Made by a program: the position numbers and the translations under genes | Notes under the pieces: model-generated | Seen by the model: only the letters and a program-made list of their open reading frames with translations | What the model was told of the DNA's origin: nothing | Databases searched by the model: none | Shown here: one piece after another, positions 10,339 to 38,688 of the stretch | Layout: each line of letters starts with the position of its first letter | Numbering within the stretch: position 1 is the stretch's first letter | Source of the DNA: Methylococcales bacterium | GTDB taxonomy: Bacteria; Pseudomonadota; Gammaproteobacteria; Methylococcales; Methylomonadaceae | Direction of reading: 5' to 3' | Length of the DNA: 41,275 nt | Assembly: GCA_028714175.1 (NCBI GenBank) | Contig: JAQTMV010000014.1 | Span: 1 to 41,275 of the forward strand

Positions 10339-11328
10339 TTATTTAAGAGTTGTCAGTACTTTTTCAACTACTTTTGCAGGTAATGGAATATAGCCATCTT
10401 TTATTACAACTTGTTGGCCGGCTTTGGATAATACCATTTTCATAAATTCGTTTTCCAAGGGCGCTAACGGCAGATTAGGCTTTTTATTGACATAAATGTA
10501 CAAGTAACGTGTCAACGGATAAGCGCCTTTAATGGCATTTTCAGGTGTTGCTTCAACAAAAGGTTGTCCCGCTTTTTTTGCCAGAGGCACCATTTTTATA
10601 CCCGATGTGCTATAACCCATACCTGAATAGCCAATACCATTCTTTGATGAAGTAACCGATTGCACCACTGAGGCTGAACCCGGCTGCTCGTTCACGTTAC
10701 TTTTGAAATCACCTTTACATAAAGCGTTTTCTTTAAAATAACCGTAAGTGCCGGAAACCGAGTTTCGTCCGTACAACTGAATGCTTTTAGAACCCCAGGC
10801 GGCGACACCTGCTTCACCCCAGGTTTCAATATCAGTTTCGTAACCGCATTTGCGGGTAGACGAAAAAATCGCATCAACCTGCGGAATAGTCAGACCTTTA
10901 ATGGGGTTGTCCTTATTGACCAGCACAGCCAGCGCGTCAATAGCAACGGGGACTGCCGTAGGCTTGTAACCGTATTTATCTTCGAAAGCTTCCAGTTCGT
11001 CATCCTTCATCTCACGGCTCATAGGCCCAAGATTTGATGTACCTTCTGTTAACGCAGGGGGTGCAGTGGAAGAACCCGCTGCCTGAATCTGGATATTAAC
11101 ATTAGGATACTCGCGGTTAAATTCTTCAGCCCAGAGCGTCATCAAATTTGCCAGTGTGTCAGAACCCACACTGGACAAATTGCCAGAAATACCACTGGCT
11201 TTTTGATATTCAGGAATATCTGCATCAACTGTCTGTACCGCACCTGCAGTTCCGCTGACCAATGCCGCAGCAGTAAATCCCATCGCTGCTATCAGTAATT
11301 TTGTCTTAAAAGATAATTTCATCATCAA
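10339..11328 (-). CDS. pstS: Phosphate-binding periplasmic protein PstS
   Basis: Captures phosphate in the periplasm and delivers it to PstC/PstA. A signal peptide ([19 protein letters not shown], cleaved near TAGA) is followed by [19 protein letters not shown], the phosphate-contact loop [11 protein letters not shown], and [27 protein letters not shown] and [13 protein letters not shown] form the second half of the binding site. This is the Pseudomonas/methanotroph PstS type (329 residues) rather than the E. coli type. Three ATG/AAA-rich start codons occur together, and the first or third Met is the likely start. It leads the pst operon behind a Pho box at 11438-11455. Confidence 0.96.
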
Positions 11329-11421: not shown

Positions 11422-11455
11422 AGTCTAGGGTATTTTAATGACAAGATTATGACAA
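11422..11455 (-). promoter_or_regulatory. Pho box and -10 element for pstS
   Basis: On the minus strand TTGTCATAATCTTGTCAT matches the PhoB box in 14 of 18 positions, with both TTGTCAT heptamers exact and 11 bases apart. Exactly 10 bases later is TAGACT, a fair -10 box at the spacing PhoB promoters use. This predicts induction of the pst operon by PhoB under phosphate limitation. Confidence 0.85.
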
Positions 11456-12095: not shown

Positions 12096-12129
12096 TTGTC
12101 ATTAAATGTTAATACGACATTGTTATTAT
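12096..12129 (+). promoter_or_regulatory. Possible Pho-type promoter for the CHAD gene
   Basis: One exact TTGTCAT half-site is followed by a poor second half (TGTTAAT). A TATTAT -10 box lies exactly 10 bases after the 18-base block. The spacing fits PhoB but the second half-site is weak. Confidence 0.4.
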
Positions 12130-16638: not shown

Positions 16639-18162
16639 GTAACTACTCGCGCCCTATCGAGGCAGCCTTCCCAGCCAGGGCGATTTGAATAGCGATGAGC
16701 GGATTATATCCCCGGTTGGCCATGGTTTGCAGATAGCTGGATATTCGACAATAGGCGTGCGCATAGTCTTCAGCCCGGAAGCAGCCGGAGACCTTTTGTT
16801 TGACTTTGGCCATTCTCAAATCCTGTTCTGCGCGGTTATTGGTAAACGCGACATGCGGATCTTTTGCAAACAGCAATACGGCTGCTTCATGCGTCTTGAG
16901 GCGCTCCCACAGATTGTGGGCATCGGATTTGGCCAGTTTGCCGCGTTTTCCGCTGGGTTTGGGCGGAATCACCGGCAATTCTTTTTCGCCGCGCGTCAGA
17001 ATAGCCCGGTAACGTTTTTGCAAGTTGGCCTGTTCGATTGCCGTCAGTTTCTTGTCCGCGCTATTCAAGACGCTCATGCAGGTAAGCTGCAATAAGCGTT
17101 TCATGTGTCTTGCCCAGCGATAGTCGTGCGCATCCACCATAAATGTCAGTTCGCGCAGCAAATGCGACCCGCACAGACCATGTTTGCAGTCTGAATAGGC
17201 AAAATAGGATGACCAGCAGTCATGGACGATGGCACCGCCGTAACGCGGAATGAGGTTAATCGACTCGATCGTCTCTTTGCCGCGCTTTCGATGTAAAAAC
17301 TTGAGCGTGGCATCGCCGGCTGAATAAACAAGTATCCAATGGTTTTTCTGATCCACCCGCAGCGAGGTTTCATCCACATGAATCGCCGGAGCCCGCAGGA
17401 GTTGTTCTTTGGCTTGAGTTTCCCAGGTTTCCAAGGCCAGATGTAAGCGCAGTACGAATTTCAATAAGGTCGCTTCGGCAATCACCACATCCAACATCGA
17501 TGTCAGTAGCTTCTGCACCCGGTTCAGTGCCACCATCTGGCAAACCAGCAGATTGATGGCAAACGCTTTTAAGCCATCGCCATATTGTAAAGGCCCGTGC
17601 ATATCGGCCGGAAATCGGCCTTTAACGGTAGCTGCGCGGTCGGACATTGTTTGATCTGTGCATCGACGTGCTCAACCACTTTCTCGAACACAATATCAAT
17701 TTTGGTGCGTCTTTCATGGTGAGTACTAGGCACGCCCGTCAAATCATCGCCGCACACATCACAGGTCTGCACGGTGGACAGCATCACGTTTTCCACTGTG
17801 CGCCTGTTTTGAGCCGTTGCCTGGTTGTGCTGTTTTCCTTTGCCGTTACTGCCGGAATGGCCTAACGCCGATTCATCTTTTTCCGTTTGCGACGATGGCT
17901 TACTGGAGTTGGTCGTGTCTTTTTTCGTGGTGCGTTCCAGAAAAATGGCCAGTATCAGCTCAACCACCATGAACAAGCTATTCATGATGGACTGGCTTTC
18001 ACTGCTGATGTTGCCTTCAGCACACAGGCGTTCGAAATCCGCTGTAGGCTCCTTGACATGCCAATAAACAGGACAATAAGCTGGAGTAGCGTCATTTCTA
18101 TTTTGAGCACCCAAAAACCAGTTAAGCTTTTTTTTTGACTTTTTTATGGGGGGAGTAGTTAC
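16639..18162 (-). mobile_element. IS66-type insertion sequence
   Basis: Bounded by terminal inverted repeats GTAACTACTC (16639-16648) and GAGTAGTTAC (18153-18162), 1524 bp overall. It contains one transposase reading frame split by a frameshift, and no tnpA/tnpB accessory genes. The transposase stop codon lies inside the left repeat. I see no matching 8-base target duplication outside the ends, so the element has either decayed or been rearranged. Confidence 0.8.
16643..18114 (-). pseudogene. IS66 family transposase (frameshifted)
   Basis: Two frames together make an IS66 transposase. The 5' frame (18114 to about 17640) has a zinc-binding segment CDVCGDDL and ends in VVEHVDAQIKQCP. The 3' frame (from about 17640 to 16643) resumes at ATVKGRFPADMHGPLQYG. 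The family would be continuous across this point, so a frameshift lies near 17630-17650. The catalytic DDE residues are visible: IHVDETSLRV, AIVHDCWSSYF and NNRAEQDLRMAKVKQ. It is probably inactive unless frameshifting is programmed; the 3' frame alone (334 residues) carries the whole catalytic core. Confidence 0.85.
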
Positions 18163-18243
18163 CAGAATTTCATCATTCTGTCACGCGACTGTTATAGCAT
18201 CAGCATTTGTTTATGAGTTCAAACGTTAACTACAGGGTGCAAT

Positions 18244-18756
18244 ATGCAAATTTTAAGTTTAATGAAACTTGCTGATATTTTTACTGTTGGCAATCTGTGC
18301 TGCGGCATACTTTCAATATTGCTGGCTATTGATGGCCATTATGGTTTAAGTGCATCGCTGCTGTTTTTGGCGGTGATCTTTGATGTGCTGGATGGGAAAA
18401 TTGCCGGCCTGCTACATCAAAAAAATCTTTTCGGCAAACAAATCGATTCCATGTCTGATCTGGTCTCCTTTGGCGTTGCACCCGCATTGTTATATTACTC
18501 AATGAGTTCTCCGGGTGTTTTAGGTATTGCAGTGTCATTATTTTTTATTGCATGCGGTATGCTTCGACTAGCTCGTTATAATATTTCCGAAGGAACCGGT
18601 TTCATGGGTGTACCTATTACGGTGAACGGTGTTTTGTTTCCAATTCTCTTTCTGGTTTTCAGCAGCTTCCCTGAAAGCCTGAAGTATTGGCCGATGATCT
18701 TTTTAATTCAGGGCTTCCTGATGATTTCTACTTTAAAAATATCGCGGATATTCTGA
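18244..18756 (+). CDS. CDP-alcohol phosphatidyltransferase (PssA-like)
   Basis: A 170-residue membrane enzyme that would transfer a phosphatidyl group from CDP-diacylglycerol to an alcohol, probably serine. The family motif is DVLDGKIAGLLHQKNLFGKQIDSMSD, carrying all four metal-binding Asp residues and both Gly residues. The usual Arg after the Ala (DGxxAR) is replaced by Gly. The context VSFGVAPALLYY resembles PssA of the Bacillus/archaeal type rather than E. coli Pss. There are about six hydrophobic helices. It stands alone after the IS66 element and near a glycosyltransferase remnant, hinting that a lipid-modifying locus was broken up here. Confidence 0.85.
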   Translation: MQILSLMKLADIFTVGNLCCGILSILLAIDGHYGLSASLLFLAVIFDVLDGKIAGLLHQKNLFGKQIDSMSDLVSFGVAPALLYYSMSSPGVLGIAVSLFFIACGMLRLARYNISEGTGFMGVPITVNGVLFPILFLVFSSFPESLKYWPMIFLIQGFLMISTLKISRIF

Positions 18757-26546: not shown

Positions 26547-28148
26547 TTAGGCTATTGAAGAATAAATTTCCTGAGTAAACAGGGTGTCGCCGTCGATGTC
26601 TTTCAATGAGACTGTCATTGTCAGGCTAACGTCGTCAATATCGACTTGACCAAAGAACTGGAGTCCTGACAAGGGTGACAGATTCGGGCTGGGCGATGCT
26701 TTTTGAAATATCAATTGTGGCCCAAAAGTATTATCAAGCTGATGGGGGGCGAAACTGCCGGCATTTAAAGGTCCGGAAACAAACTCCCAGAACGGATCGA
26801 AATTTTTAAACTCGGCTTCGTCTGGGTCATAATAATGCGCGGCGCAGTAATGGACATCGGCGGTAAACCAAACCATATTCGCTATTTCCTCTTGTTTAAC
26901 GAAGGCAAGTAACTCTGCGATTTCAAACTCTCGCCCTAAAACAGGGCCATCCCCGTTAGCAAGGTTTTCAAATCGAGGCCGGTTCTGTTGATCGAAGCCG
27001 TCACCCGACTGTAAACCAATAGGCATATCCGCGGCAATCACTTTCCATACAGCTTTCGAGTTTTTTAAACCGGCTTTCAGCCAATTCAATTGCTCACGTC
27101 CAAAATAGTCAGAATCGGCGTCGGGCTGCTCCTGGCGATTATAATTGTTTGACCCGCGATAGGAGCGCATATCCAGAACAAATAGTTCCAGTAGTGGGCC
27201 ATACCGTAATTTGCGATAAATACGTTGGCTTTCGTTTGCCTGGTAATAACGGATAGGCGCATATTCCAATGCCGCAATCGTCCCTAGTGACACAAGTTCG
27301 GCTATATTTTTTTCAGTATAGCGGGCATCGCCTTCCAACTCTTTCGAGGGTGACCAATTATTGGTGACCTCGTGATCGTCCCATAGCCAGATTGTTGGAA
27401 CTTCCGCATTAAAGCGACGCAAATTATGATCCAGCAAATTATATTTATAGCGACCGCGAAATTCATCCAGAGTCTCGGCAACCTTGGCGACCTCAGGGGT
27501 TACGATGTTGCGCCAGACTTCACCCGTTTCATGAACTATCTGGGACTCCTGAATAGGACAATCGGCATAAATACTGTCGCCGCAATGGATAAAAAAATCG
27601 GGATCGGTTAAACGCATCGTTTCATAGATTCTCATCCCGCCGATATCCGGATTAATTCCCCATCCTTGACCGCAGGTATCTCCTGACCAGAGAAATCGGA
27701 TATTTTTCGCACGGTCCGGAGCTGTACGAAAACGACCGGAACTTGCCTTGCTCAATGCCTTGTGATTATTTAGATCCTGGAATATGACCCGGACAAAAAT
27801 ATCCTGGCCGGGAGGCAATCCGGTCAAATCGATGCGGGCGGTATAGTCGGTATTTTCAAAGGCAAAGGGGCCTTGTATTACTTTTGATTCTTTAAAGTCA
27901 GGATTCAAACTATATTCGACAATCATTCTGCCGGGGCGGTCGGCTCGGCTCCAGACAATAGCCCGATCTGAAAGCACGTCGCCAAATTGAATCCCCTGTG
28001 TCAACTGGGGCAGCTCTGATAGTGCCGTAGTATTCAAAGATGCAGCAATGCTGCTTAACCAGGAGCCTGAAGTAACAGCGCCGGCACTCAATGCGAAACC
28101 TGCAGTCTTGATGAAAGTCCGTCGGGATTTTTGATATTCATTCAACAT
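26547..28148 (-). CDS. phoD: PhoD-type alkaline phosphatase, Tat-exported
   Basis: A phosphodiesterase/phosphomonoesterase that releases phosphate from organic esters outside the cytoplasm. The N-terminus carries a Tat signal SRRTFIKTAGFALSAGAVTSG. PhoD-family metal-site motifs follow: FLWSGDTCGQGWGIN, FFIHCGDSIYADCP, TIWLWDDHEVTNNW and VWFTADVHYCAAHYY. Together these supply the Asp, Asn and His ligands of the Fe/Ca centre. It is 533 residues, with the last 35 forming a beta-rich tail. Upstream is a Pho box (15/18) with a -10 at the expected distance, so it should be a Pho regulon member. It is convergent with glgP. Confidence 0.96.
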   Translation of the reverse strand: MLNEYQKSRRTFIKTAGFALSAGAVTSGSWLSSIAASLNTTALSELPQLTQGIQFGDVLSDRAIVWSRADRPGRMIVEYSLNPDFKESKVIQGPFAFENTDYTARIDLTGLPPGQDIFVRVIFQDLNNHKALSKASSGRFRTAPDRAKNIRFLWSGDTCGQGWGINPDIGGMRIYETMRLTDPDFFIHCGDSIYADCPIQESQIVHETGEVWRNIVTPEVAKVAETLDEFRGRYKYNLLDHNLRRFNAEVPTIWLWDDHEVTNNWSPSKELEGDARYTEKNIAELVSLGTIAALEYAPIRYYQANESQRIYRKLRYGPLLELFVLDMRSYRGSNNYNRQEQPDADSDYFGREQLNWLKAGLKNSKAVWKVIAADMPIGLQSGDGFDQQNRPRFENLANGDGPVLGREFEIAELLAFVKQEEIANMVWFTADVHYCAAHYYDPDEAEFKNFDPFWEFVSGPLNAGSFAPHQLDNTFGPQLIFQKASPSPNLSPLSGLQFFGQVDIDDVSLTMTVSLKDIDGDTLFTQEIYSSIA

Positions 28149-28197: not shown

Positions 28198-28215
28198 ATG
28201 ACAGGTTAATGACGG
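28198..28215 (-). promoter_or_regulatory. Pho box for phoD
   Basis: On the minus strand CCGTCATTAACCTGTCAT matches the PhoB box at 15 of 18 positions. Ten bases further on is AATAAT, a good -10. The start codon follows about 49 bases after the box. Confidence 0.85.
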
Positions 28216-28425: not shown

Positions 28426-28518
28426 TTTTTTTGGTCCTGGGGATAAAAGCTTTGAAAAGTTTCCACCCCAGATAGTTCAATGTCCGGCTTTTTACCGGAA
28501 AATCCTGGAGTGTTAATT

Positions 28519-28872
28519 ATGAAAGTTATTGCCGACAAAGCAGTTGAAGAAGCGACGGTTGAAAACGTAACAGAACCTGTTAAGAAATCCAAAATCGCGT
28601 TAATTGGAATCAAAAAAGGAGCCACTGCGGCCAGGCAAGCCGTTACTAAAATTGCTTCTGCACCATCGAGATTGTTTGATAGTGGGTTATATGGTGCCTG
28701 TTACGGAATATCCTATGGGGCCGTTTTTACTTCTTTAGCGATCGTAAAAATGTTGCCTGCCAATAGTCTCGTGACGAAAGGTTTCCATGATGGAGCCAAG
28801 GTCGCGCGTAAAGACTTTAAAACTCGTCAGGAAAAGCACTTAGTGACCAAAGACTCAAAAGTGGTCAACTAA
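28519..28872 (+). CDS. Small basic protein with a central hydrophobic segment
   Basis: A 117-residue hypothetical protein. I chose the ATG at 28519, with GGAG 9 bases upstream; an earlier frame start at 28480 lacks a site. The N-terminus is Lys/Ala-rich and helical (KKSKIALIGIKKGATAARQAVTK), the middle holds SGLYGACYGISYGAVFTSLA followed by IVKMLP, a probable membrane or membrane-surface helix, and the C-terminus is charged (KVARKDFKTRQEKHLVTKD). I do not recognise the family. Its shape resembles small granule- or membrane-coating proteins. It is monocistronic, with a strong promoter, and sits between phoD and the GTPase pair. Confidence 0.7.
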   Translation: MKVIADKAVEEATVENVTEPVKKSKIALIGIKKGATAARQAVTKIASAPSRLFDSGLYGACYGISYGAVFTSLAIVKMLPANSLVTKGFHDGAKVARKDFKTRQEKHLVTKDSKVVN

Positions 28873-28906: not shown

Positions 28907-30502
28907 TTAGCAGGCGGGGTTGGTCAGCGGACTTTCCCCGCCTTGCACTGCATCTCCAGACAAAGCAACAGACGATTTATCAAAAGTGCTGAAGCCTTTT
29001 TTGGCAATAAATTGCCCGGCTCGCTTGGATTGTTTCCAAAGTCTGCGCCAATGATCTTCCTTATGATATTCCTTAAGACAACGAAGATAACGCACCTGCT
29101 TGGCTTGTTCGAGTTGCTGAAAAATGGCGGGAATCAAGCCTTCCTCAACATTGTATTCAAAGCCCGGATTTAAATTGACCGGCGCAATTTGATCGATATT
29201 TAAGCCCAATTCTTTCGTTAGCGTATCCATCATCAATCTAATTGCCTGGGCTTTTGCCCCGCAAGGATTCATGACATCATAGGGCGGATGCCACTCCCTG
29301 AGCGGACGCAACTGATCGATATGCGTCAATGCCACAACGACGGGCGGCAAACTGTTCTTGCCCTTAGCTGCAAAACAATTCTGAATGGCCTGCAGCATTT
29401 TTTTATCCGGTTCACGCGCGGCATTGGTTGCGGAAATCGCCAGAAGAATAATGTCACTGCGGATAATTTCTTCCGAAGCTTTTGCAAACGAACGTTGGCA
29501 GTCATCGCTTCCATAACCTTCGCAATCCAGTATAATCGCAGTTTCCAATCCCGGGCGTTCCAGCAGATAAGAAGTAATGCCTTCTGTTGTAGGAGTTGCA
29601 TTGGTTTCGGCTTTTTTTGCTCCGAACAGGGCATTGATGAGGCTGGATTTACCGGCATTAGTCTGGCCTACTACCATTATACGGAAGGGTTCCGTGGACA
29701 CTGCCGATTCCCTGTGTTTAATTTTGTCCAGTTCCTGTTGAGATGGTCGTGTCGCTTTGGCGAATATATCATTGTCCAGAACCAGGCTGCCACTGTAAAG
29801 CTCGATCGCGTAATAGCCTATTTTCTTGATATAGGCATCGATAAGCCAGCGCTTGAGGTCATCAGTGGAATGAGCTAACAGGCTATCGGTAGTCAGTATT
29901 TTGAGTTCGCGAATCATTGCCGACACCGGATCCAGTCCGGCCGATACAATACGAAACAGGCGATAGAGCTCACGCCCGCGATTAACTAACTTGTGACCGC
30001 GGGCAATATCGTTCAGCGAGAAAATATGACTGCCCGGTACGTTTTCCGAAAGATTGACGCGTAACTCTTGCGCCAGCATCTCTATGACTTTGAGCAGATA
30101 GGGTATCTTGATTTCCAACAGAGCGTCTTTACGTTGTGGATAATACTGCTCCGCTACAGACTGCATCACTTCAAGCAAAGTCTGCATATAAAATTGCGAA
30201 GAGGCCAAATCCGGATTGCTGTTTCTGCGTAATACGGAAATTTGCTCGATTTGTTTGTAAGCCAGTTTGTTTTGAGTTGTTTTTTCGACCGTTGTCGAAA
30301 TATCAAGCAGTTCCAGTTGCAAATTCAACCGGTTCAAGCGTTGATTAACGAGCCACCACCCCGCGGCTAAGATTGTTGACGCCGCCAGCCATAAAATCAG
30401 CATTTGATGCAGCCATAACCAGTAAGCTCCTGCTGCCAAAGGGATACTGAACGGGGCAATTATGACTGAAAAATGCATGTGCCAGCGGGTTTTCATTTTC
30501 AT
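28907..30502 (-). CDS. Membrane-anchored GTPase
   Basis: A 531-residue protein. Two membrane helices lie near the N-terminus (HFSVIIAPFSIPLAAGAYWLWL and LILWLAASTILAAGWWLV); a long helical region of about 200 residues follows. The G domain starts near residue 275 with G1 VVGQTNAGKSSLINALFGA, G2 region NATPTTEGITSY, G3 ILDCEGYGSDD and G4 ALTHIDQL. The tail is basic. G4 is THID rather than NKxD, as in several Era-like or septin-like GTPases. It overlaps the preceding GTPase gene by 4 bases (ATGA), so the two are translationally coupled and probably act as a pair. Function unknown; membrane remodelling or organisation is a fair guess, not shown. Confidence 0.85.
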   Translation of the reverse strand: MKMKTRWHMHFSVIIAPFSIPLAAGAYWLWLHQMLILWLAASTILAAGWWLVNQRLNRLNLQLELLDISTTVEKTTQNKLAYKQIEQISVLRRNSNPDLASSQFYMQTLLEVMQSVAEQYYPQRKDALLEIKIPYLLKVIEMLAQELRVNLSENVPGSHIFSLNDIARGHKLVNRGRELYRLFRIVSAGLDPVSAMIRELKILTTDSLLAHSTDDLKRWLIDAYIKKIGYYAIELYSGSLVLDNDIFAKATRPSQQELDKIKHRESAVSTEPFRIMVVGQTNAGKSSLINALFGAKKAETNATPTTEGITSYLLERPGLETAIILDCEGYGSDDCQRSFAKASEEIIRSDIILLAISATNAAREPDKKMLQAIQNCFAAKGKNSLPPVVVALTHIDQLRPLREWHPPYDVMNPCGAKAQAIRLMMDTLTKELGLNIDQIAPVNLNPGFEYNVEEGLIPAIFQQLEQAKQVRYLRCLKEYHKEDHWRRLWKQSKRAGQFIAKKGFSTFDKSSVALSGDAVQGGESPLTNPAC

Positions 30503-31695
30503 TGCAACACCTTATGTTGGATCTCACTCACGTAATCCTTCAGGATGGCCCGGCCCAGTTCAAACTGTTCCGCATAAACAGTTCGGAATAATTCACTGGA
30601 TAACTCTTTTCCGCTGCGTAAATTTTGAAAGTAAACCGTTAACGTCTTGCCTAATGCATAAGTTGTTGCTGCGGTCAGCACGGATGATACGGCCAAACCG
30701 TAGACGGGAATCAGTTTGATTAATTCGCGGCGGCCGATATTGGTCAGTAGAGTAAGACCTAGTGCGCTGCTGATTTCGGCCCAACTTTTTCGATCCAGCT
30801 TGTAATTATAAATTGACGCAATCGTCTGAAACATTTTGGCCTGAACCAGAGTTACGACAGGGATATCAACAAAAGGAATAGGAACGGCGCCTGCCGCACC
30901 TGAAATAAGCGCGTAGGCAACGATATGCGGATGCGCCGCTTTACTATATACATCATGCAGTTCCTTGCGTATTTCTTTCATTTCATGAAGCATCAAGGCA
31001 ACACCGTGCGGCAGTGCTGTTTCCAGGCTTCGCCAAAACGCTTCCAAGCCATAATTGACCGGTTGGTAACCATCTTCAGGCAGTGTTAGATCGACCGGGA
31101 CAAAATAAGCATCGATACCCTTAAATAGCGTTCTTTGTTCAAGCAAGGATCGGCGCAGGTTTTCAGGAATAATTTTAGTCCAGTCCTCATCTTCAAACGG
31201 ATAAGGACTAAAGTGTTCGGAGGCGGGGTCGGTATATCCCTCATGCAATGCAGTTTGCACAACAATAACCGGCCAGTCGGGTTTAGCTTTATGAATCGAT
31301 CTGACAGCCTCCATAACGGCGTGTTGGGAATGATCCATGGCTTTCATTACGACGATCAGCAAGTGAGCCTGTTCCCGGAAAGCTTCAATATCGCCATTCG
31401 GTTCATAATCCACTTCGCCCAGTCCCCGCGTATCCAGGAACCGCATAATGCAATCCCGGGAATCAGGAAAATCATAAATGAATGCAGATCTGGTGCAGGA
31501 GTGCATGCCGTTTCCTATCTGGGCGCGGCTGTCTCCGGTCAGAGCCCTGATGATCGATGTTTTTCCCGATTGAGTCTTCCCCAACAGCCAAAAAACCGGA
31601 GTGGGCATAGACGACTTTATGGTTTCAAGGCGTTCATTGATTTCCTCATCATCAAGACGAGGCGTGAAGACGGTCGAGTAAATTTTTTTCCACAT
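30499..31695 (-). CDS. GTPase with a C-terminal DUF697-like membrane domain
   Basis: A 398-residue protein. The G domain is at the N-terminus: G1 LLGKTQSGKTSIIRALTG (about residues 37-54), G3 FLDTRGLGE, and in place of NKxD the segment VVQTALHEGY. The C-terminal half has hydrophobic helices AYALISGAAGAVPIPFVDIP and LIPVYGLAVSSVLTAATTYAL, as in DUF697/YcjF-like domains, with many glycine and alanine residues. The ATG at 31695 has GAGG nine bases upstream; a TTG 18 bases earlier is less likely. It leads a two-gene unit with the membrane-anchored GTPase. Hydrolysis of nucleotide may be altered given the unusual G4. Confidence 0.85.
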   Translation of the reverse strand: MWKKIYSTVFTPRLDDEEINERLETIKSSMPTPVFWLLGKTQSGKTSIIRALTGDSRAQIGNGMHSCTRSAFIYDFPDSRDCIMRFLDTRGLGEVDYEPNGDIEAFREQAHLLIVVMKAMDHSQHAVMEAVRSIHKAKPDWPVIVVQTALHEGYTDPASEHFSPYPFEDEDWTKIIPENLRRSLLEQRTLFKGIDAYFVPVDLTLPEDGYQPVNYGLEAFWRSLETALPHGVALMLHEMKEIRKELHDVYSKAAHPHIVAYALISGAAGAVPIPFVDIPVVTLVQAKMFQTIASIYNYKLDRKSWAEISSALGLTLLTNIGRRELIKLIPVYGLAVSSVLTAATTYALGKTLTVYFQNLRSGKELSSELFRTVYAEQFELGRAILKDYVSEIQHKVLQ

Positions 31696-31831
31696 ATGCA
31701 AAGCCTCAAACAAGGCCGCAAAATTTTTATGATTTCATGGCTTAGGTGCAGAGTTTATTCTTTGCTTTCATCAGTCCGAAGCAAAATCCAGCAATGAATA
31801 AACCCTATCATGTCTTTAATCACTCGATGAT

Positions 31832-31849
31832 AATAAAGAAATATGACAA
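31832..31849 (-). promoter_or_regulatory. Weak Pho-box-like site before the GTPase operon
   Basis: Minus-strand TTGTCATATTTCTTTATT matches the PhoB box in 13 of 18 positions. The first half is essentially perfect and the second half is poor. A GATTAA lies 10 bases downstream. It is suggestive only. Confidence 0.35.
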
Positions 31850-31924
31850 TATCATGACCTGGGGGAATAATTTCGTTGCTTTAAATCAGCTATCTAAGTT
31901 GATACATTTCGAATGGGATTAACA

Positions 31925-32188
31925 TCAACCGATATTTTGGTTAATATTCATAAGAGTTCTTACTTTCTGTTCCAGCTTCGCCCATGAAAGCAATAGTGGT
32001 TTACGTAAAATTTTGACAGTCAGCACATCTTCCTGAAGCAAATAGTGCGCCTCGATTCCGAGACCTTTAATCAACCCTTTTTCAGTATCGCCGGTAAATC
32101 GCAAGCCATGTTTTTCGGCTGTTTGTCTGGCTTTAATAATGAGTTCGTCCGGATGGTCGACGATCTTGACCTTAATAGATTTTTTCAT
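31925..32188 (-). CDS. Small protein resembling the PHA-granule regulatory family
   Basis: An 87-residue protein, MKKSIKVKIVDHPDELIIKA to the end. I chose the ATG at 32188, since the longer frame runs through the promoter region. The pattern of alternating strands, HGLRFTGDTEKGLIKGLGIE then HYLLQEDVLTVKILRKPLLL, resembles Pfam PHA_gran_rgn (polyhydroxyalkanoic acid system protein, PF09650), by eye only. It would be a small cytosolic alpha/beta protein. It is divergent from the DUF5132-like gene, with the Pho box in the shared region. If the assignment is right, it adds a granule-associated function to this cluster. Confidence 0.6.
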   Translation of the reverse strand: MKKSIKVKIVDHPDELIIKARQTAEKHGLRFTGDTEKGLIKGLGIEAHYLLQEDVLTVKILRKPLLLSWAKLEQKVRTLMNINQNIG

Positions 32189-32210
32189 TTCAACTACTTT
32201 TTGATTGAAA

Positions 32211-32244
32211 TTGTCATATAACTGTAACAATGTGATGTTAAAAA
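32211..32244 (+). promoter_or_regulatory. Pho box upstream of the DUF5132-HMA2 pair
   Basis: TTGTCATATAACTGTAAC matches the PhoB box in 16 of 18 positions (mismatches at 1 and 16). TAAAAA at 32239-32244 is a fair -10 at exactly 10 bases. The start of the DUF5132-like gene is 226 bases beyond the box, so a long 5' leader is implied. Confidence 0.75.
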
Positions 32245-32453
32245 ATAATATATAGTGACATGTTGCGATAAATGTAATAAATGCCTCAACCCGATCTTTA
32301 GGTATTGAAGTGCTCAAATCATCCGTTAAGAGCTTTTTACTGAATCGCTACATCGGAGGTGGCGACTTGCGATTTTGATGATAATCAAAAAAATTATTAT
32401 CAAGCAACAACTGAACAGTACGCCCGCTATGCAACTCCTGGGAAAAGCTGAAT

Positions 32454-32768
32454 ATGATTAAAATAAATGATTTTTTTAAGAGCGGCACCCCTTTGGGAAT
32501 CGCCATTGGCGTTGGCGCCACTGTCTTGGCTACAGCAGTTATTCCAGTACTGCCGGCCCTCGCTAAAGCCGCCCGTCCTGCTGCCCGCGCTGCTATCAAA
32601 TCAGGCATATTGCTCGCGGAAAAAGGGCGGGAGTTCATGGCCGAAGCGAGCGAAGAGCTTGAAGACATTCTTGCCGAGGCCAGGTCCGATCTGCTGCGGG
32701 AAAACAGCATGAGTCAGGCAGAATCTTCAGAGCATGCTGAGGCTTCCACTGATCAAGATGACTTATGA
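32454..32768 (+). CDS. DUF5132-like small membrane protein
   Basis: A 104-residue protein with one Gly/Ala-rich hydrophobic helix near the N-terminus (PLGIAIGVGATVLATAVIPV), then an amphipathic basic helix (ALAKAARPAARAAIKSGILL), then an acidic tail rich in Glu and Asp. This is the layout of DUF5132 proteins, which occur next to HMA2-domain proteins and P-type ATPases in many Proteobacteria. Its stop overlaps the next start (ATGA). It is behind a strong Pho box. No function is known for the family; a membrane scaffold or surface protein is a guess. Confidence 0.75.
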   Translation: MIKINDFFKSGTPLGIAIGVGATVLATAVIPVLPALAKAARPAARAAIKSGILLAEKGREFMAEASEELEDILAEARSDLLRENSMSQAESSEHAEASTDQDDL

Positions 32769-33307
32769 CAGGAAACGAAAGTTATCCTTCAGCATACATT
32801 AAACATCAATTGCCGGGTCGCGTAAGGCTGAAGATTCCGCAAAAAAAAGGCGACTTTCGTTACTTTGACCGTATTGCAGAATTATTCTCCGATTGCCCGG
32901 GTATCACCCAACTACAGCTTAACCCACCTGCGGCCAGTATATTGATTTGCCATGAGATAGAGATCCAATTCTTGAATATTGCCGAATTTGCTCAAACAAA
33001 CGGCCTGTTTACGATCATTGAACAACCGGCGGAAGAGGAGACTTTTTCGATTCCCTATCTGCCTATACCAAAACTCACCTCAACAGGCCTCAGTCGAATT
33101 GACGAGTCGCTGACGGATTTCAGCCGAGGGCTGGTTGATGGGCGCTCCCTATTGTTCCTGGCATTAATCGGGCTGGCCGTTCGTCAGATGACCAAGGGCG
33201 CTATTATGGGACCCGCATCCACCTTGCTTTGGTATGCTTTTAGTGTATTGAAAGAAGAAAATGAAAAAACCTTAGATCCGGACAGTCATCCCGACTTTGA
33301 CTCCTAG
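32765..33307 (+). CDS. HMA2-domain membrane protein without CxxC
   Basis: A 180-residue protein. The N-terminal 90 residues resemble a heavy-metal-associated type 2 domain: IKHQLPGRVRLKIPQKKGDF, GITQLQLNPPAASILICHEI. The metal-binding CxxC of classical HMA domains is absent. The C-terminal half has SLLFLALIGLAVRQMTKGAI and STLLWYAFSVL, one or two membrane helices. The neighbouring P-type ATPase begins with the same PGRxRxKxP module, so the two proteins may interact. Translation is coupled to the DUF5132-like gene. It is convergent with the metK-like gene. Confidence 0.75.
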   Translation: MTGNESYPSAYIKHQLPGRVRLKIPQKKGDFRYFDRIAELFSDCPGITQLQLNPPAASILICHEIEIQFLNIAEFAQTNGLFTIIEQPAEEETFSIPYLPIPKLTSTGLSRIDESLTDFSRGLVDGRSLLFLALIGLAVRQMTKGAIMGPASTLLWYAFSVLKEENEKTLDPDSHPDFDS

Positions 33308-33332: not shown

Positions 33333-34523
33333 TTATTCGGCAAGCAATTCGGCCTTGTCAGTCTTTTCCCAAGGCAAAGGTGAACCATTAGCGCCGAAAT
33401 GCCCGTTGACGGGCAATTTCTGATAAAAGATACCGTCATTTTCTTGCGTAAGCTCGCGTAATTTCAAATCCCTGACAATGGCTCCCAGCCGGAAATCAAA
33501 ATGCCTGAGCAGTCGCCTGCGAATCTCATGATCCTCAATTATCCCGGTTCCTTTTGTCGTCAAATAAACACTGACCGGACCGGGAAAACCGATACTATAA
33601 CTCAATTGAACCTCGCATTGTTCGGCGAGGCCTGCTGCCACGATATTTTTGGCGGCATAGCGGGCTGCATAGGCGCCGACTCTGTCGATACGCGAGGGGC
33701 CCTTGCCGCTCAAAGCCGATCCGCAATGCCTGGCAAAACTTCCGTAAGTATCGCTGTCGGTTTTTCGGCCGGTCATGCCTGAGTGGGCAGAAGGCCCGCT
33801 CCGCACATAAGGACCGTTGGGATTAATGGTAATGCGGGTCAAATTGTCCGGCTTGATAGATGCATGTCGAAAAACCGGGTTGATGACATTATGCCGGAGA
33901 TCTTCTTCGATTTGCGCAAAGGCAGGCAGCGAATCGGGATCGTTACAGCCGACGATGAGGGTAATGCTGTCGATCCGGCTTGGCGTATCATTCACAAATT
34001 CAACTCCGACCTGAGAAGTGCAATCCGGAGAAAAATAATCGATACCTGATTGCCGCCTGGTTTTGGATAATTGCCGGGCCAATTGATTAGCCAACGTGAT
34101 AGGAAGCGGCATTAATTCCGGGGTATGCCGGCAAGCGTAACCGAAGACCGTCGTTTGATGGGAGACGGTGATCCGGTCTATTTCTTCATCATCAACGTTT
34201 GAAAAATTGATTTCCCGGGGGGTCTTTGATTGCTCTATCTGACTGGTCACAACGGTGCATTCGGCGGCATTGAAGTTCTTGGGCCGGTAGCCGACGCCTT
34301 TGATGATGGCGCGCGCTATTTCAGGGATATCGACAATCGCTTCGCTGGCAAACCGCGTGGCAAGAAATATTACATTCTTTGATAGCGCACACTCCGCCGT
34401 TATTCTGGACGTGGGGTCTTGCCGGAGGAAGGCGTCGACAATAGCATCGCTGACGGTATCGCAGAGCCGGTCGGGGTGCCCTTCGGTGACGGATTGAGAG
34501 GTAAAAACAAAGTCAGTGATCAT
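33333..34523 (-). CDS. SAM-synthetase (MetK) paralogue with altered active-site acids
   Basis: A 396-residue protein homologous along its whole length to S-adenosylmethionine synthetase. The N-terminal motif SVTEGHPDRLCDTVSDAIVD, the MTGRKTDSDTYG motif and the AYAARYAAKNIVAAGLAE segment are kept. Aligned by eye to E. coli MetK, GAGDQGLMFGYA becomes TVSHQTTVFGYA (D118 to His), the GGPMGDCGLTGRK segment becomes SGPSAHSGMTGRK (D238 to His), and GGGAFSGKD becomes CGSALSGKG (D271 to Gly). All three are acids that bind substrate or metal. It starts inside the ATPase 3' end, with AGGA before the ATG at 34523, an 11-base overlap. It probably does not serve as the housekeeping SAM synthetase. Confidence 0.85.
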   Translation of the reverse strand: MITDFVFTSQSVTEGHPDRLCDTVSDAIVDAFLRQDPTSRITAECALSKNVIFLATRFASEAIVDIPEIARAIIKGVGYRPKNFNAAECTVVTSQIEQSKTPREINFSNVDDEEIDRITVSHQTTVFGYACRHTPELMPLPITLANQLARQLSKTRRQSGIDYFSPDCTSQVGVEFVNDTPSRIDSITLIVGCNDPDSLPAFAQIEEDLRHNVINPVFRHASIKPDNLTRITINPNGPYVRSGPSAHSGMTGRKTDSDTYGSFARHCGSALSGKGPSRIDRVGAYAARYAAKNIVAAGLAEQCEVQLSYSIGFPGPVSVYLTTKGTGIIEDHEIRRRLLRHFDFRLGAIVRDLKLRELTQENDGIFYQKLPVNGHFGANGSPLPWEKTDKAELLAE

Positions 34524-37500
34524 TTTCATTATCCTGATTAAAGGTATTTTTATTGATCCCTTTTATGGCTTCATTGGCAATAAACGGCAATCCTGCGCCG
34601 GCCAGAATGGCAATCATATCGAAAACGCCTAGAGGACTCAGCCTTAGCAGCCTGCGCAATGGCGGCAATGTCACTGCCAGCACCTGCATTAATGCTGACA
34701 AACCGACGGCGGTATCGAGATAGCGATTGACGGGGCGATTCTCCAAATTAAAAATAGAGGTATGCTCCGACCGGGATCGATAGGCATGGAGAAACTGAGC
34801 GATTGTCAGCGACATGAAAGCATTGGTGCTGGCATTGGGTCCGGGGCCGTAGCGCAGAAGGCTGTACCCGTATACTCCTAAAGTTCCGGCCGAAATGATA
34901 CCTGACTCCCGGATCAGTTTAGCATAATCGCTGCGACTCACAATGGCGGCATTCGGATCACGCGGCGGTCGTTTGAGCACATCAACCTCCGGCGGATCCA
35001 TTGCCAAAGCCAGAGCGGGAAAGATATCCGTAATTAAATTGATCCACAATAGCTGCATCGGATTGAGAATTTCGGGCCCGCCCAAAGCGGCACTGACCAG
35101 CATCACTTCGATTTCGCTGAGATTGGTCGACAGCAGAAAGTGCAGGCTTTTACGAATATTGTCATAAATAGCCCGGCCTTCGCGTATCGCAGTCACCATG
35201 GTTTTCAAGTCGTCGTCTTCCAAAATGACATCGGCTACCGAACGCGCTGCATCGGTACCTTTTTCGCCCAGTGTGACGCCGATATTGGCAGCTTTAAGCG
35301 CGGGGCTATCGTTGATTCCGTCACCGGTCATCGCGACAACTTTTCCGCTCCGCTGCAAGGCTTGCACAATCAGCAGCTTGTGCGCCGGACTGACGCGGGA
35401 AAAAATCGTCGTACGACCCACCAACCCCGCGAGGACGGAAGGATCCAGTTTATCCAGATGTCCGGAGTCGATAATTTCCAGCGGCTTACCTTCAGCGCCA
35501 TTCAGGCCCAGCCTTTTCCCAACGGACAAAGCCGTCGAGCTTTGATCGCCGGTAATCATAACCGTTTCAATGCCGGCATCATGGAACTGGGCCATGAGTT
35601 CTGCCATGCCCGGGCGGATCACATCTTCCATGCCGACCAATCCCAGCCAAATGAGTCCTTGCTGTTTATACCCGGTTATCTCCCCGGTGATGCAATAAGC
35701 CACGCCCAGCACGCGCAAAGCATCGGCGCCAAGCCTTTCGTTCCAGGTTAAAATTGCTTTGCGCCGATCCTCGGACAACTCTTCCAGGCGTCCATCGATG
35801 CTGCATCTCCGGCAAAGTGCGAGAACCTCGGAAGGGCTGCCTTTAACGGCGGTAAAAAATTGCCCATCTTCCAAAGTATGAACAGTAACCATATAGGGCC
35901 GATCTTCGGCGCGGTAATCCACTTTTACCGCGGGACGATGCGCTCTTAAAAAATGGACATCTTCGCCGGCATTAATGGCGATCTGGAGCAGTGCGTTCTC
36001 CGTAGGCGATCCTTGCAAGAAGCAGGCGCCCATTTCAGTAGGCATCGATTCATTACAAAGCACCAGCACTTCCATCATGCGCCGCAACGTTTCATCCGTC
36101 CGGTAAAGGTCGACTTTGGCTTCGCGATGATAAAAGCCTCCCTCCTTGACTTTAATGCCGGTTTGCAACGTTTGCAGCGCCACCACACTCATTTGATTTA
36201 ACGTCAGCGTTCCGGTTTTATCAAGACAAATGACCTGTACCGACCCCAGATTTTCAACAGCAGGCAACTGGCGAATCAGCACTTTCCGGCGCTTCATCTC
36301 CTCGATGCCCAGCGCAAGCGTTGTGGTCGCGACTGTCGGCAGTCCTTCCGGAACCGCAGCGACCGCCAGGGAAATAGATGACATCAACATTTCCAGTAAC
36401 GGGCGGCCGCGTAAAAGCCCTACCACGAACACCAGCACGCAGATACCCGAACTGAGCAAGGCCAGCTGCATGCCCATGTCATCGATTTGCATTTGCATCG
36501 GTGTTACCGGCGTTTTTGTTCCCCCCACCAAATCCTGAATTTTGCCGATTTCGGTATGCCGTCCGGTGGCGACGGCTATCGCCCGGCCGTTGCCGCCGGT
36601 CACCGTCGTCCCCATATAAACCATATTTTGCCGATCGCCCAGAGCGGTGTCCTCTTCGCCCAGGTATTGGTGGTTTTTGCTGACCGGAAGACTCTCGCCG
36701 GTTAAAGGCGATTCGTCTATCGTTAAGCGATGGCTGTCCAATAAACGGGCATCAGCCGCAACATAAGAGCCCGGAGCCAGAACCAGGAGGTCGCCAAACG
36801 CTATCTCCGGCATTGAAATTTCCTGCTTTTTCCCGCCTCGGATCACTATTGCTGTTTCGGGAGTCAACTGCCCCAGGGCATTAATGGTTTTTTCCGCCGA
36901 TTTTTCGGTCACGAAACCAATAACCGAATTGATCACAACAACGGTTACTATAACGGCCGTATCTGCGACGCCTCCCGTAGCCAATGAAACAACTGCCGCT
37001 ACGCCGAGCATCGCCACCGGAGCGGAAACAAATTGCCCTAAAAACATTTGCAAAGATGATCGACCGGCATGCTCGGATAATAGGTTTAGCCCGTACTTCG
37101 CCAGCTTTTTAGCCGCAGCCTCTTGAGTCAGGCCCTCTTCGCTTCCCTGGACGAAATTGATGACCTGGGTGCCGGAAAGCATGTGCCAGAGCTGTTGCGG
37201 CTGAGCTTGATAGCCTGTGACTTCAGGTCTCCGCCGCGCTTTTTTAGGTTTTCGCTCTATGACCTTTTTTGGCGGACGATCGATACTTTCGGTATGACGA
37301 ATAATGGAACAGCCCAATTGCGCTTCGAGCAATTGGGCAATACTGGCCGGCATTTCCCGGGAATCACGAGGCGCTATATATTCAACCAGGAGATTACCCG
37401 TTAACGTATTGGCGCGCACGAGTCTGATTTCATCAAGAACCGTTAATCTGGATTCCAGGTCCGCACGCAGGCGATCGTTCCGATACAGACTGGGCACCTT

Positions 37501-37584
37501 AATGCGTGTCCGTCCCGGAACCCTGTCATTAACGATCAGCAGATAATCTTGCGGTTTTTTATCTTGGGTAACGGAGTCCGTCAT
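34513..37584 (-). CDS. P2-type calcium-transporting ATPase with an N-terminal HMA2-like module
   Basis: A 1023-residue pump. Residues 1 to about 100 form the HMA2-like module (VNDRVPGRTRIKVPSLYRND) and a basic linker. Then come the A domain (LTGESLP, near 297), the phosphorylation motif CLDKTGTLT (near 456) and the hinge MTGDGINDSPALKAANIGV (near 755). Calcium ligands of the SERCA family are kept: PEGLP in M4, STNLSEIE in M5 (Asn and Glu), and NLITD in M6 (Asn, Thr, Asp). M8 has Gln in place of the acidic ligand, as in Pmr1-type Ca/Mn pumps, so one ion site is expected. Ca2+ or Mn2+ export or sequestration is the likely role. It lies between caxA and the metK-like gene in one transcription unit. 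Confidence 0.92.
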   Translation of the reverse strand: MTDSVTQDKKPQDYLLIVNDRVPGRTRIKVPSLYRNDRLRADLESRLTVLDEIRLVRANTLTGNLLVEYIAPRDSREMPASIAQLLEAQLGCSIIRHTESIDRPPKKVIERKPKKARRRPEVTGYQAQPQQLWHMLSGTQVINFVQGSEEGLTQEAAAKKLAKYGLNLLSEHAGRSSLQMFLGQFVSAPVAMLGVAAVVSLATGGVADTAVIVTVVVINSVIGFVTEKSAEKTINALGQLTPETAIVIRGGKKQEISMPEIAFGDLLVLAPGSYVAADARLLDSHRLTIDESPLTGESLPVSKNHQYLGEEDTALGDRQNMVYMGTTVTGGNGRAIAVATGRHTEIGKIQDLVGGTKTPVTPMQMQIDDMGMQLALLSSGICVLVFVVGLLRGRPLLEMLMSSISLAVAAVPEGLPTVATTTLALGIEEMKRRKVLIRQLPAVENLGSVQVICLDKTGTLTLNQMSVVALQTLQTGIKVKEGGFYHREAKVDLYRTDETLRRMMEVLVLCNESMPTEMGACFLQGSPTENALLQIAINAGEDVHFLRAHRPAVKVDYRAEDRPYMVTVHTLEDGQFFTAVKGSPSEVLALCRRCSIDGRLEELSEDRRKAILTWNERLGADALRVLGVAYCITGEITGYKQQGLIWLGLVGMEDVIRPGMAELMAQFHDAGIETVMITGDQSSTALSVGKRLGLNGAEGKPLEIIDSGHLDKLDPSVLAGLVGRTTIFSRVSPAHKLLIVQALQRSGKVVAMTGDGINDSPALKAANIGVTLGEKGTDAARSVADVILEDDDLKTMVTAIREGRAIYDNIRKSLHFLLSTNLSEIEVMLVSAALGGPEILNPMQLLWINLITDIFPALALAMDPPEVDVLKRPPRDPNAAIVSRSDYAKLIRESGIISAGTLGVYGYSLLRYGPGPNASTNAFMSLTIAQFLHAYRSRSEHTSIFNLENRPVNRYLDTAVGLSALMQVLAVTLPPLRRLLRLSPLGVFDMIAILAGAGLPFIANEAIKGINKNTFNQDNENDH

Positions 37585-37632: not shown

Positions 37633-38688
37633 TCAGACGGTTTGTCCGTTGATATACATGAAGTACGAATTTATCACAAGGAGTAATATCAACACCCAGC
37701 TGATCACGCCTACCATTTTCAAAATGCGTTGCTCAGGACGATAAAACAAACCAATGATGGCAAAACCGGTCATGATTAATGATGTTACTACCGAAACCGC
37801 ATGGACAGGCGAGATCTTCGAAAAAATCGGCCCATGTTTGTAGACTATATCTTCGACCGCAAGAATTGCGTTATTCATCAGATTACTTCCGAAAATACCG
37901 CCGATAGCCATATCCAGGGCATGGATTTTAACCGCCGTTACTGCAACGGTCATTTCCGGAACGGTAGTAATAAAAGCAACCAGCAAAGTGCCAACAAAAC
38001 TTTCTTGCCAGTGCATGATCACGGCAATTTGCTTGGCAACCATCGGCAAAAAAATACCTGTGACAATAACGACTGAAGCGGCTGCTATGTAGCGTATGAT
38101 AACGGCGTTCAGCGAAAGGTTCGGAAAGGCATCGGGCTCTTGTTCCGTGTATAACTTGATCTGACGGCTTTCGTAGCTAAAAACCGTATAAACGGCGATC
38201 AAATACAAAACTAATATGACCGGGCTTAGTATCCCGATGTGACCAAACGCAAAAGCTTTCCCGTTCAACGCCATATTCATCCCCAAGCCGTTAAAACCGA
38301 TCATTACAATTCCGAATGAGGCGGAAAGGATATGTCCCTGACTGGCAGAAGTATAAATGGATCCTCCTCGATACAACAAGTCCAGAATCACGATAATGGC
38401 CAAATTAAAAATGCAGGCGCCGAAAATAGCGCCAACCGCAAGATCGGGCGCGTCAGCCAAAGTTACGGCACTGATTCCGCTGGTTAATTCCGGAACGGAA
38501 GTGACTATACCTATCAATAAAAAGCCTATCCAGTTGCCGCCTAATCCGGTTTTATCGGCTATGGCGTCACCATAAACGGTTAATTTGACCCCCGCATAGC
38601 CCACCAGGAAGAAACATGCGAAGAATTGTGACCAAACGTAGATTGGATCGTTGAAGAGTTGCGGCCAAATGGTGATTATATAGTTAAT
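37633..38688 (-). CDS. Calcium/cation antiporter (CaCA family, YrbG/CaxA-like)
   Basis: A membrane exchanger with the two inverted alpha repeats of the CaCA family: IVTSVPELTSGISAVTLADA with GAIFGACIFNL, and AFITTVPEMTVAVTAVKIHA with GGIFGSNLMNN. About ten membrane helices are visible. The only canonical start is a GTG at 38604, which has no ribosome site and cuts into helix 1 (FFACFFLVGYAGVKLTVYGD). The frame is open to a stop at 38701-38703, and directly after it is AAGGAG, followed at ideal spacing by ATT (38688). I therefore propose initiation at ATT or the neighbouring ATC, giving about 352 residues with helix 1 complete. It leads a caxA-ATPase-metK-like unit. Confidence 0.85.
   Translation of the reverse strand: MNYIITIWPQLFNDPIYVWSQFFACFFLVGYAGVKLTVYGDAIADKTGLGGNWIGFLLIGIVTSVPELTSGISAVTLADAPDLAVGAIFGACIFNLAIIVILDLLYRGGSIYTSASQGHILSASFGIVMIGFNGLGMNMALNGKAFAFGHIGILSPVILVLYLIAVYTVFSYESRQIKLYTEQEPDAFPNLSLNAVIIRYIAAASVVIVTGIFLPMVAKQIAVIMHWQESFVGTLLVAFITTVPEMTVAVTAVKIHALDMAIGGIFGSNLMNNAILAVEDIVYKHGPIFSKISPVHAVSVVTSLIMTGFAIIGLFYRPEQRILKMVGVISWVLILLLVINSYFMYINGQTV

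Follow-up and report, generated by a model that had tools for sequence, protein, structure and literature searches.

Genes for proteins of the uncharacterised families DUF5132 and HMA_2 stand side by side in a methanotroph-type genome, and the locus raises the question whether they answer to phosphate limitation and what they might do there. The window, that is the whole 41,275-nt stretch of Methylomonadaceae DNA that was analyzed, comes from a Methylococcales bacterium whose named relatives by protein are the methanotrophs Methylobacter and Methylovulum. The original prediction had placed a 16/18 Pho box between the DUF5132 gene and a divergent gene and had taken it as a tie to phosphate limitation. 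The sites under discussion are:

11438–11455, minus strand: Pho box of pstS (gene 10339–11328), 14/18, an exact match to YTGTMAYN4YTGTMAY
28198–28215, minus strand: Pho box upstream of the PhoD gene (26547–28148, PF09423), 15/18
31832–31860, minus strand: two overlapping Pho-like boxes 5′ of the GTPase1 gene, 11 bp apart, 14/18 and 13/18
32211–32228, plus strand: Pho box TTGTCATATAACTGTAAC, facing DUF5132, 17/18 against the degenerate consensus
32239–32244, plus strand: −10 candidate A, TAAAAA, 10 bases past the box, 4/6 to TATAAT
32251–32256, plus strand: −10 candidate B, TATAGT, 22 bases past the box, 5/6 to TATAAT

Three yardsticks were used to score the box at 32211–32228. Against the degenerate E. 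coli consensus CTGTCATAWAWCTGTMAY, TTGTCATATAACTGTAAC reaches the top score of the window, ahead of the phoD (15) and pstS (14) boxes. The sequence predicted as a Pho box is thus present, with a count of 17 rather than 16. When the window was simulated 40 times with an order-2 Markov model, a score of 17 was never attained and the mean number of sites scoring at least 16 was 0.05. Under the rigid consensus CTGTCATAAATCTGTCAT the order was phoD (15), pstS (14) and TTGTCATATAACTGTAAC (13). The third yardstick was a matrix trained from scratch on 30 pstS promoter regions of Methylomonadaceae (motif YTGTCATAATYYTGTCATATAA); here TTGTCATATAACTGTAAC scored 13.2 bits and came fourth in the window, and the pstS box, itself part of the training set, scored 29.5. 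The matrix score of TTGTCATATAACTGTAAC was matched by 0.2% of 1000 first-order shuffles of its own 400-bp upstream region. The box had been called the best of the window and better than that of pstS. Since it is first by the degenerate consensus and behind pstS by the other two, this ranking hinges on the model; the box is strong, and its rank varies with the scoring.

The two half-sites of the box are 11 bp apart, as in the Pho regulon, and the DUF5132 start codon follows at 225 bp. A −10 at the canonical distance had been proposed at candidate A. Its spacing holds up, as 22 of the 27 pstS promoters of the family whose box is clear have a −10-like hexamer 10 bases past it, but candidate B is the better fit to TATAAT. 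The position of candidate B is also better conserved than that of A (TATAGT in the window, TACATT in G036, TATAGT in G043 and TATATT in G060). A scan of 31700–32800 with Rfam gave just two matches, both below threshold and both to eukaryotic families, so no known riboswitch is apparent in the 5′ leader.

Conservation of the box was followed in related genomes. The 22-bp core ATTGTCAYAWAAYTGTAACAAT is kept 5′ of DUF5132 in three other genera (G036, G043 and G060), and the flanking intergenic DNA has diverged. The core is missing 5′ of DUF5132 in G175 and L015; in these two, and in L016 and L021, boxes precede GTPase1 instead. A look for the same box in related genomes had been suggested, and it returned a mixed picture: a DUF5132 box is found in L019, L022, L024 and L104, which are 4 of the 15 other family loci with DUF5132, and not in the remainder. 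A GTPase1 box is found in L015, L016, L020 and L021 as well. The GTPase1 boxes of the window score 12.6 bits with the matrix, a value attained by 0.5% of shuffles, and six other loci have similar sites that align with them column by column. Upstream of the window ATPase, MAT-like and exchanger genes no box of at least 14/18 was detected.

We then asked how often boxes precede the genes that accompany DUF5132 and HMA_2, referred to below as the module. Besides the window, 27 loci were used, chosen by protein and not by box (16 from the family, 224 kb, and 11 from outside, 174 kb), and a module match was a box of at least 15/18 by the degenerate consensus within 350 bp 5′ of a module gene. In the 16 family loci, 7 of 15 matches at this level precede a module gene. 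The other eight lie at GlgP (2), pstS (1), h18874 (2), GTPase1 (2) and an ORF before DUF47 and a Ca2+ exchanger (1); the two GTPase1 matches, in L015 and L016, fell outside the automated module count because the gene is cut by the contig end. Outside the family, 7 of 9 matches precede a module gene, one precedes pstS and one lies at neither. As a control, 200 permuted consensuses gave mean module matches of 0.155 (maximum 2) in the family and 0.015 (maximum 1) outside. The pstS-trained matrix placed 11 of 37 family matches and 5 of 9 outside matches at module genes, compared with means of 0.76 (maximum 3) and 0.14 (maximum 1) for 100 column-permuted matrices. The richest locus, L104, carries four boxes, 5′ of GlgP, of the ORF upstream of DUF47 and the Ca2+ exchanger, of DUF5132 and of the ATPase. 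With L015 and L016 counted, 12 of the 27 loci, from several families, have a box of at least 15/18 at a module gene. The other 15 have none, L025 and L029 among them even though neighbourhood sequence is present there. Immediately before a module gene, three further loci, L115–L117, lack even a box of at least 13/18, and none of the four loci from another class, on stretches of 59–73% GC, has a box of at least 15/18 at a module gene.

Linkage to phosphate uptake genes points the same way. In 5 of the 27 other loci (L015, L022, L024, L086 and L087) the module has pst genes next to it; a rough estimate, which assumes that a 4-Mb genome has two pst operons of 5 kb each, puts the chance expectation at 0.27 loci. 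PstS in L015 and L024 and PstB in L015 score under the NCBIfam cut-off, yet these families are their best matches. Two further "pstB" matches, in L105 and L106 (E 1e-15 and 1e-18), were discarded as generic ABC ATPases.

In the window itself, the phosphate-related genes are phoU, pstB, pst permease genes, pstS and the genes for a CHAD-domain protein, GDPD, PPK1, glycogen phosphorylase and PhoD. The assignments of pstS, pstB and the permeases come from sequence and position rather than from a family-library scan. The genome encodes PhoB (TIGR02154, 338.1 bits against a cut-off of 296.2) and, on a different contig from the window, an H+-PPase. Exact matches to YTGTMAYN4YTGTMAY number 9 in the 4.86-Mb genome, 2 of them in the window, compared with 3 for the reversed control pattern. 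They comprise the sites of pstS and DUF5132, two overlapping sites 5′ of a porin, one 54 bases upstream of a sterol-desaturase-like ORF (a name read from the translation) and four without a nearby downstream start of a convincing gene.

Several further sites were noted in passing. The overlapping pair at the porin (G000:C118:3839-3867; L067, L068) lies 52–63 bases 5′ of a gene labelled OprO/OprP-like from its translated sequence alone. Directly 5′ of pssA, the CDP-diacylglycerol-serine O-phosphatidyltransferase gene (18244–18756), a pair of overlapping Pho-like boxes at 18167–18195 on the plus strand, spaced 11 bp apart, scores 14/18 and 13/18; the pair may place lipid synthesis under Pho control. 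The CHAD-domain gene has a weak site about 60 bp upstream (12096–12113, plus strand, 13/18). An IS66-family transposase gene (16643–17647, minus strand) sits between GDPD and pssA in this phosphate-rich region. Glycogen phosphorylase genes beside the module have Pho boxes 5′ in L104 (2553, 17/18) and L022 (10736, 15/18); in the window the gene comes after PPK1. The gene for the 96-aa protein h18874, which in the window is downstream of pssA, has a 15/18 box about 110 bp upstream in L026 (13824) and L027 (11686).

Box conservation, module-wide enrichment and pst adjacency carry the regulatory reading beyond one site. The box at 32211–32228 thus appears to be a genuine PhoB-type Pho box, and its pattern of occurrence makes Pho control of the module in many carriers very probable. 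The proposed tie to phosphate limitation gains from boxes conserved in other genera and families, from PhoB and from adjacent pst genes, although more than half of the other loci lack a box of at least 15/18 at a module gene. A chance match, or a site of another OmpR-family regulator with no phosphate role, would agree with a box that stays under pstS in two of three scoring models and is missing from many orthologous loci; against the 22-bp footprint across four genera, the enrichment and the pst linkage we regard it as very unlikely. The box could also chiefly drive the divergent 87-aa gene, whose start codon is just 22 bases away. Both half-sites point to DUF5132, though, and in L092, L104 and L109, where no 87-aa homologue was detected, DUF5132 is faced by boxes at 93–109 bp, which leaves this arrangement highly improbable. 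Compared with the E. coli-type Pho regulon (PhoB and the Pho box, with pstS and phoA), the window is alike in its two TGTMA half-sites 11 bp apart with an AT-rich gap and in the presence of PhoB and pst-phoU. It differs in the long distance from box to start codon, in having two −10 candidates and in the genes served, for which the open-licence PMC literature searched held no description as Pho targets.

The module genes of the window and their recurrent neighbours are:

28480–28872, plus strand: 130-aa protein with no family assigned, recurring beside the module (homologues in L022, L024, L026 and L027)
28907–30502, minus strand: GTPase2, dynamin-like/MMR_HSR1 GTPase (PF01926, PF00350), overlapping GTPase1
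30499–31713, minus strand: GTPase1, DUF697/EcsC-like GTPase (PF05128, PF01926)
31925–32188, minus strand: divergent 87-aa protein, a conserved neighbour of the module in several genomes
32454–32768, plus strand: DUF5132 protein, 104 aa (PF17195, 35.4 bits, cut-off 25)
32765–33307, plus strand: HMA_2 protein, 180 aa (PF19991, 57.9 bits), overlapping DUF5132 by 4 bases
33333–34529, minus strand: S-adenosylmethionine synthetase (MetK) paralogue (PF00438/02772/02773)
34513–37584, minus strand: P2A Ca2+-type P-ATPase, 1023 aa, with an N-terminal HMA_2 domain (PF19991 and Cation_ATPase domains)
37633–38604, minus strand: Na+/Ca2+ exchanger family protein, CAX-like (PF01699)

Pfam confirms the DUF5132 and HMA2 names given earlier. 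The PHA-granule label of the divergent gene found no support: the 87-aa protein has no significant Pfam or NCBIfam family, and none of its 7 homologues matched a PHA-granule Pfam family up to a limit of E = 10. The family assignments of the two GTPases are generic. AlphaFold predicts for the HMA_2 protein a confident HMA-like N-terminal domain followed by helices (overall mean pLDDT 66.5). Foldseek with this model gave no match at E ≤ 0.001; HMA-domain chains appeared at E of about 0.05–0.14 and TM (target) of about 0.6–0.7, which is weak and agrees with Pfam. A PDB sequence search with the HMA2 profile gave no match. For the ATPase, the top NCBIfam family was the PMR1-type Ca2+ pump (632.7 bits, under the cut-off of 798.3), the closest solved structure was SPCA1, and the translation retains the P2A motifs PEGLP and NLITD. 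Ca2+ is the likely substrate by these sequence features.

The DUF5132 and HMA2 genes are part of a patchily distributed gene module. In most loci their neighbours are a MetK-like gene and the gene of a P2A ATPase tagged with HMA2; Methylomonadaceae loci add two GTPase genes and in many cases that of a Ca2+ exchanger, and elsewhere EcsC or a short HMA2 protein is found. In L023 the DUF5132-HMA2 pair stands alone in a 19-kb stretch, and in L089, L092, L093 and L109 a full ATPase is missing from the available stretch, several contigs ending early. An HMA2 homologue occurs in only 17 of 237 family genomes and 8 of 29 genera, so the module is not core to phosphate metabolism. In samples of the class and of the phylum, 12 of 369 and 3 of 398 genomes encode DUF5132, with the window's genome counted in both, as do 4 of 385 sampled from the class of G579, which we guess to be Alphaproteobacteria. 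A variant is seen in L117 (8180–12154), where DUF5132-like and HMA2 genes adjoin those of EcsC and of a P1B-type (heavy-metal) ATPase that carries an HMA2 tag: the accessory proteins are those of the module and the pump is different.

The MetK paralogue was compared residue by residue, with the numbering and the active-site and phosphate-side roles of the E. coli enzyme. In the window copy D118 is replaced by H, K165 by T, D238 by H and K269 by R. All 14 module copies compared have H or N at 118, H at 238 and R at 269, and K165 is retained in only some. The phosphate-side residues H14, D16, R244, K245, K265 and D271 are kept, as are the three MetK domains. A second MetK elsewhere in the genome is intact, with D118, D238 and K269 in place. 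The paralogue exceeds the NCBIfam metK equivalog cut-off (345 bits against 309.4); its annotation as metK is probably a mis-annotation, and it is possibly a new enzyme.

Taken together, the module is likely to couple calcium handling to the supply of phosphate. When phosphate is scarce, PhoB would activate the DUF5132-HMA2 operon through the box, and would turn on the module, of which this operon is one transcription unit and other promoters often have Pho boxes, together with Pst. Both PhoB binding and the direction of regulation we infer from the box and its setting. The ATPase and exchanger would then transport Ca2+ over a membrane that would anchor the HMA2 and DUF5132 proteins and be shaped by the GTPase/EcsC proteins, and Ca2+ would enter or leave an acidocalcisome-like intracellular store of phosphate or polyphosphate. 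An acidocalcisome-like store is preferred because polyphosphate genes lie nearby and the genome encodes an H+-PPase. We give this explanation as a whole, a Pho-controlled module serving a Ca2+/polyphosphate store, an even chance, and the intracellular Ca2+ store by itself remains a tentative proposal. The sequence itself shows the box, its conservation, the gene content of the module, the pst linkage and the lost MetK residues; ion, membrane location and the link to polyphosphate we infer. The likeness to acidocalcisomes, the polyphosphate/Ca2+ organelles, extends to the Ca2+-ATPase, the Ca2+ exchanger, the nearby PPK1 and CHAD genes and the H+-PPase; a membrane-bounded, acidic granule of polyphosphate and Ca is a prediction of this reading. 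HMA2, DUF5132 and MetK-like proteins are not known as parts of acidocalcisomes.

The same regulatory evidence would hold for a Pho-controlled module confined to the plasma membrane, exporting Ca2+ that enters or is freed during phosphate scavenging or the breakdown of Ca-polyphosphate and so protecting the cytosol with no compartment. A P2A ATPase with an exchanger is the usual Ca2+ efflux set, but HMA2, DUF5132, the GTPase/EcsC proteins and the MetK paralogue are then left unaccounted for. We hold ordinary efflux, too, as a possibility short of an even chance, about as likely as the acidocalcisome-like store. A metal-phosphate store for another cation (Mn2+, Fe2+ or a lanthanide) would be a functional analogue of ferrosomes. 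Ferrosome (fez) clusters combine a P-type ATPase, the P1B-type FezB, with accessory membrane proteins and make iron/phosphorus granules, PMR1/SPCA-type pumps carry Mn2+ too, and lanthanides are used by methanotrophs. The module shares the P-type ATPase with accessory membrane proteins, and L117 supplies the P1B-type pairing, the one among the loci examined. In contrast, the window pump keeps both P2A motifs and matches Ca2+ families best, and a Ca2+ exchanger accompanies the pump in several loci; another cation is improbable. FezC is described as a DUF4405-like cytochrome (PMC10979944), and no such protein was among the 20 window proteins scanned with Pfam. The gene table of a Bacteroides fragilis PhoB study includes BF4348, a putative calcium-transporting ATPase, and gives it values of −2.42 and +1.68 (PMC3547664), from which no conclusion was drawn.

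Beyond the acidocalcisome-like store, a bolder and unlikely proposal is that these bacteria have an organelle or membrane domain that is under phosphate control and is built from a dedicated set of proteins. In it, the HMA2 domain of the Ca2+-ATPase and those of the small membrane proteins would recruit one another, DUF5132 and the GTPase/EcsC proteins would make the membrane, and the MetK paralogue, with phosphate- and Mg-side residues kept and two active-site aspartates lost, would be a repurposed enzyme handling polyphosphate or triphosphate. DUF5132-HMA2 would then be a general chassis for various P-type pumps, P2A for Ca2+ here and P1B in L117. Our search of open-licence PMC full text found no description of a DUF5132-HMA2/Ca2+-ATPase/MetK module. 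The Pho box offers a first regulatory handle on DUF5132 and HMA_2 and, in several families of bacteria, connects both with a Ca2+ pump and with the supply of phosphate. Whether bacteria couple Ca2+ to polyphosphate in this way, and whether dedicated membranes are built for that, can now be tested.
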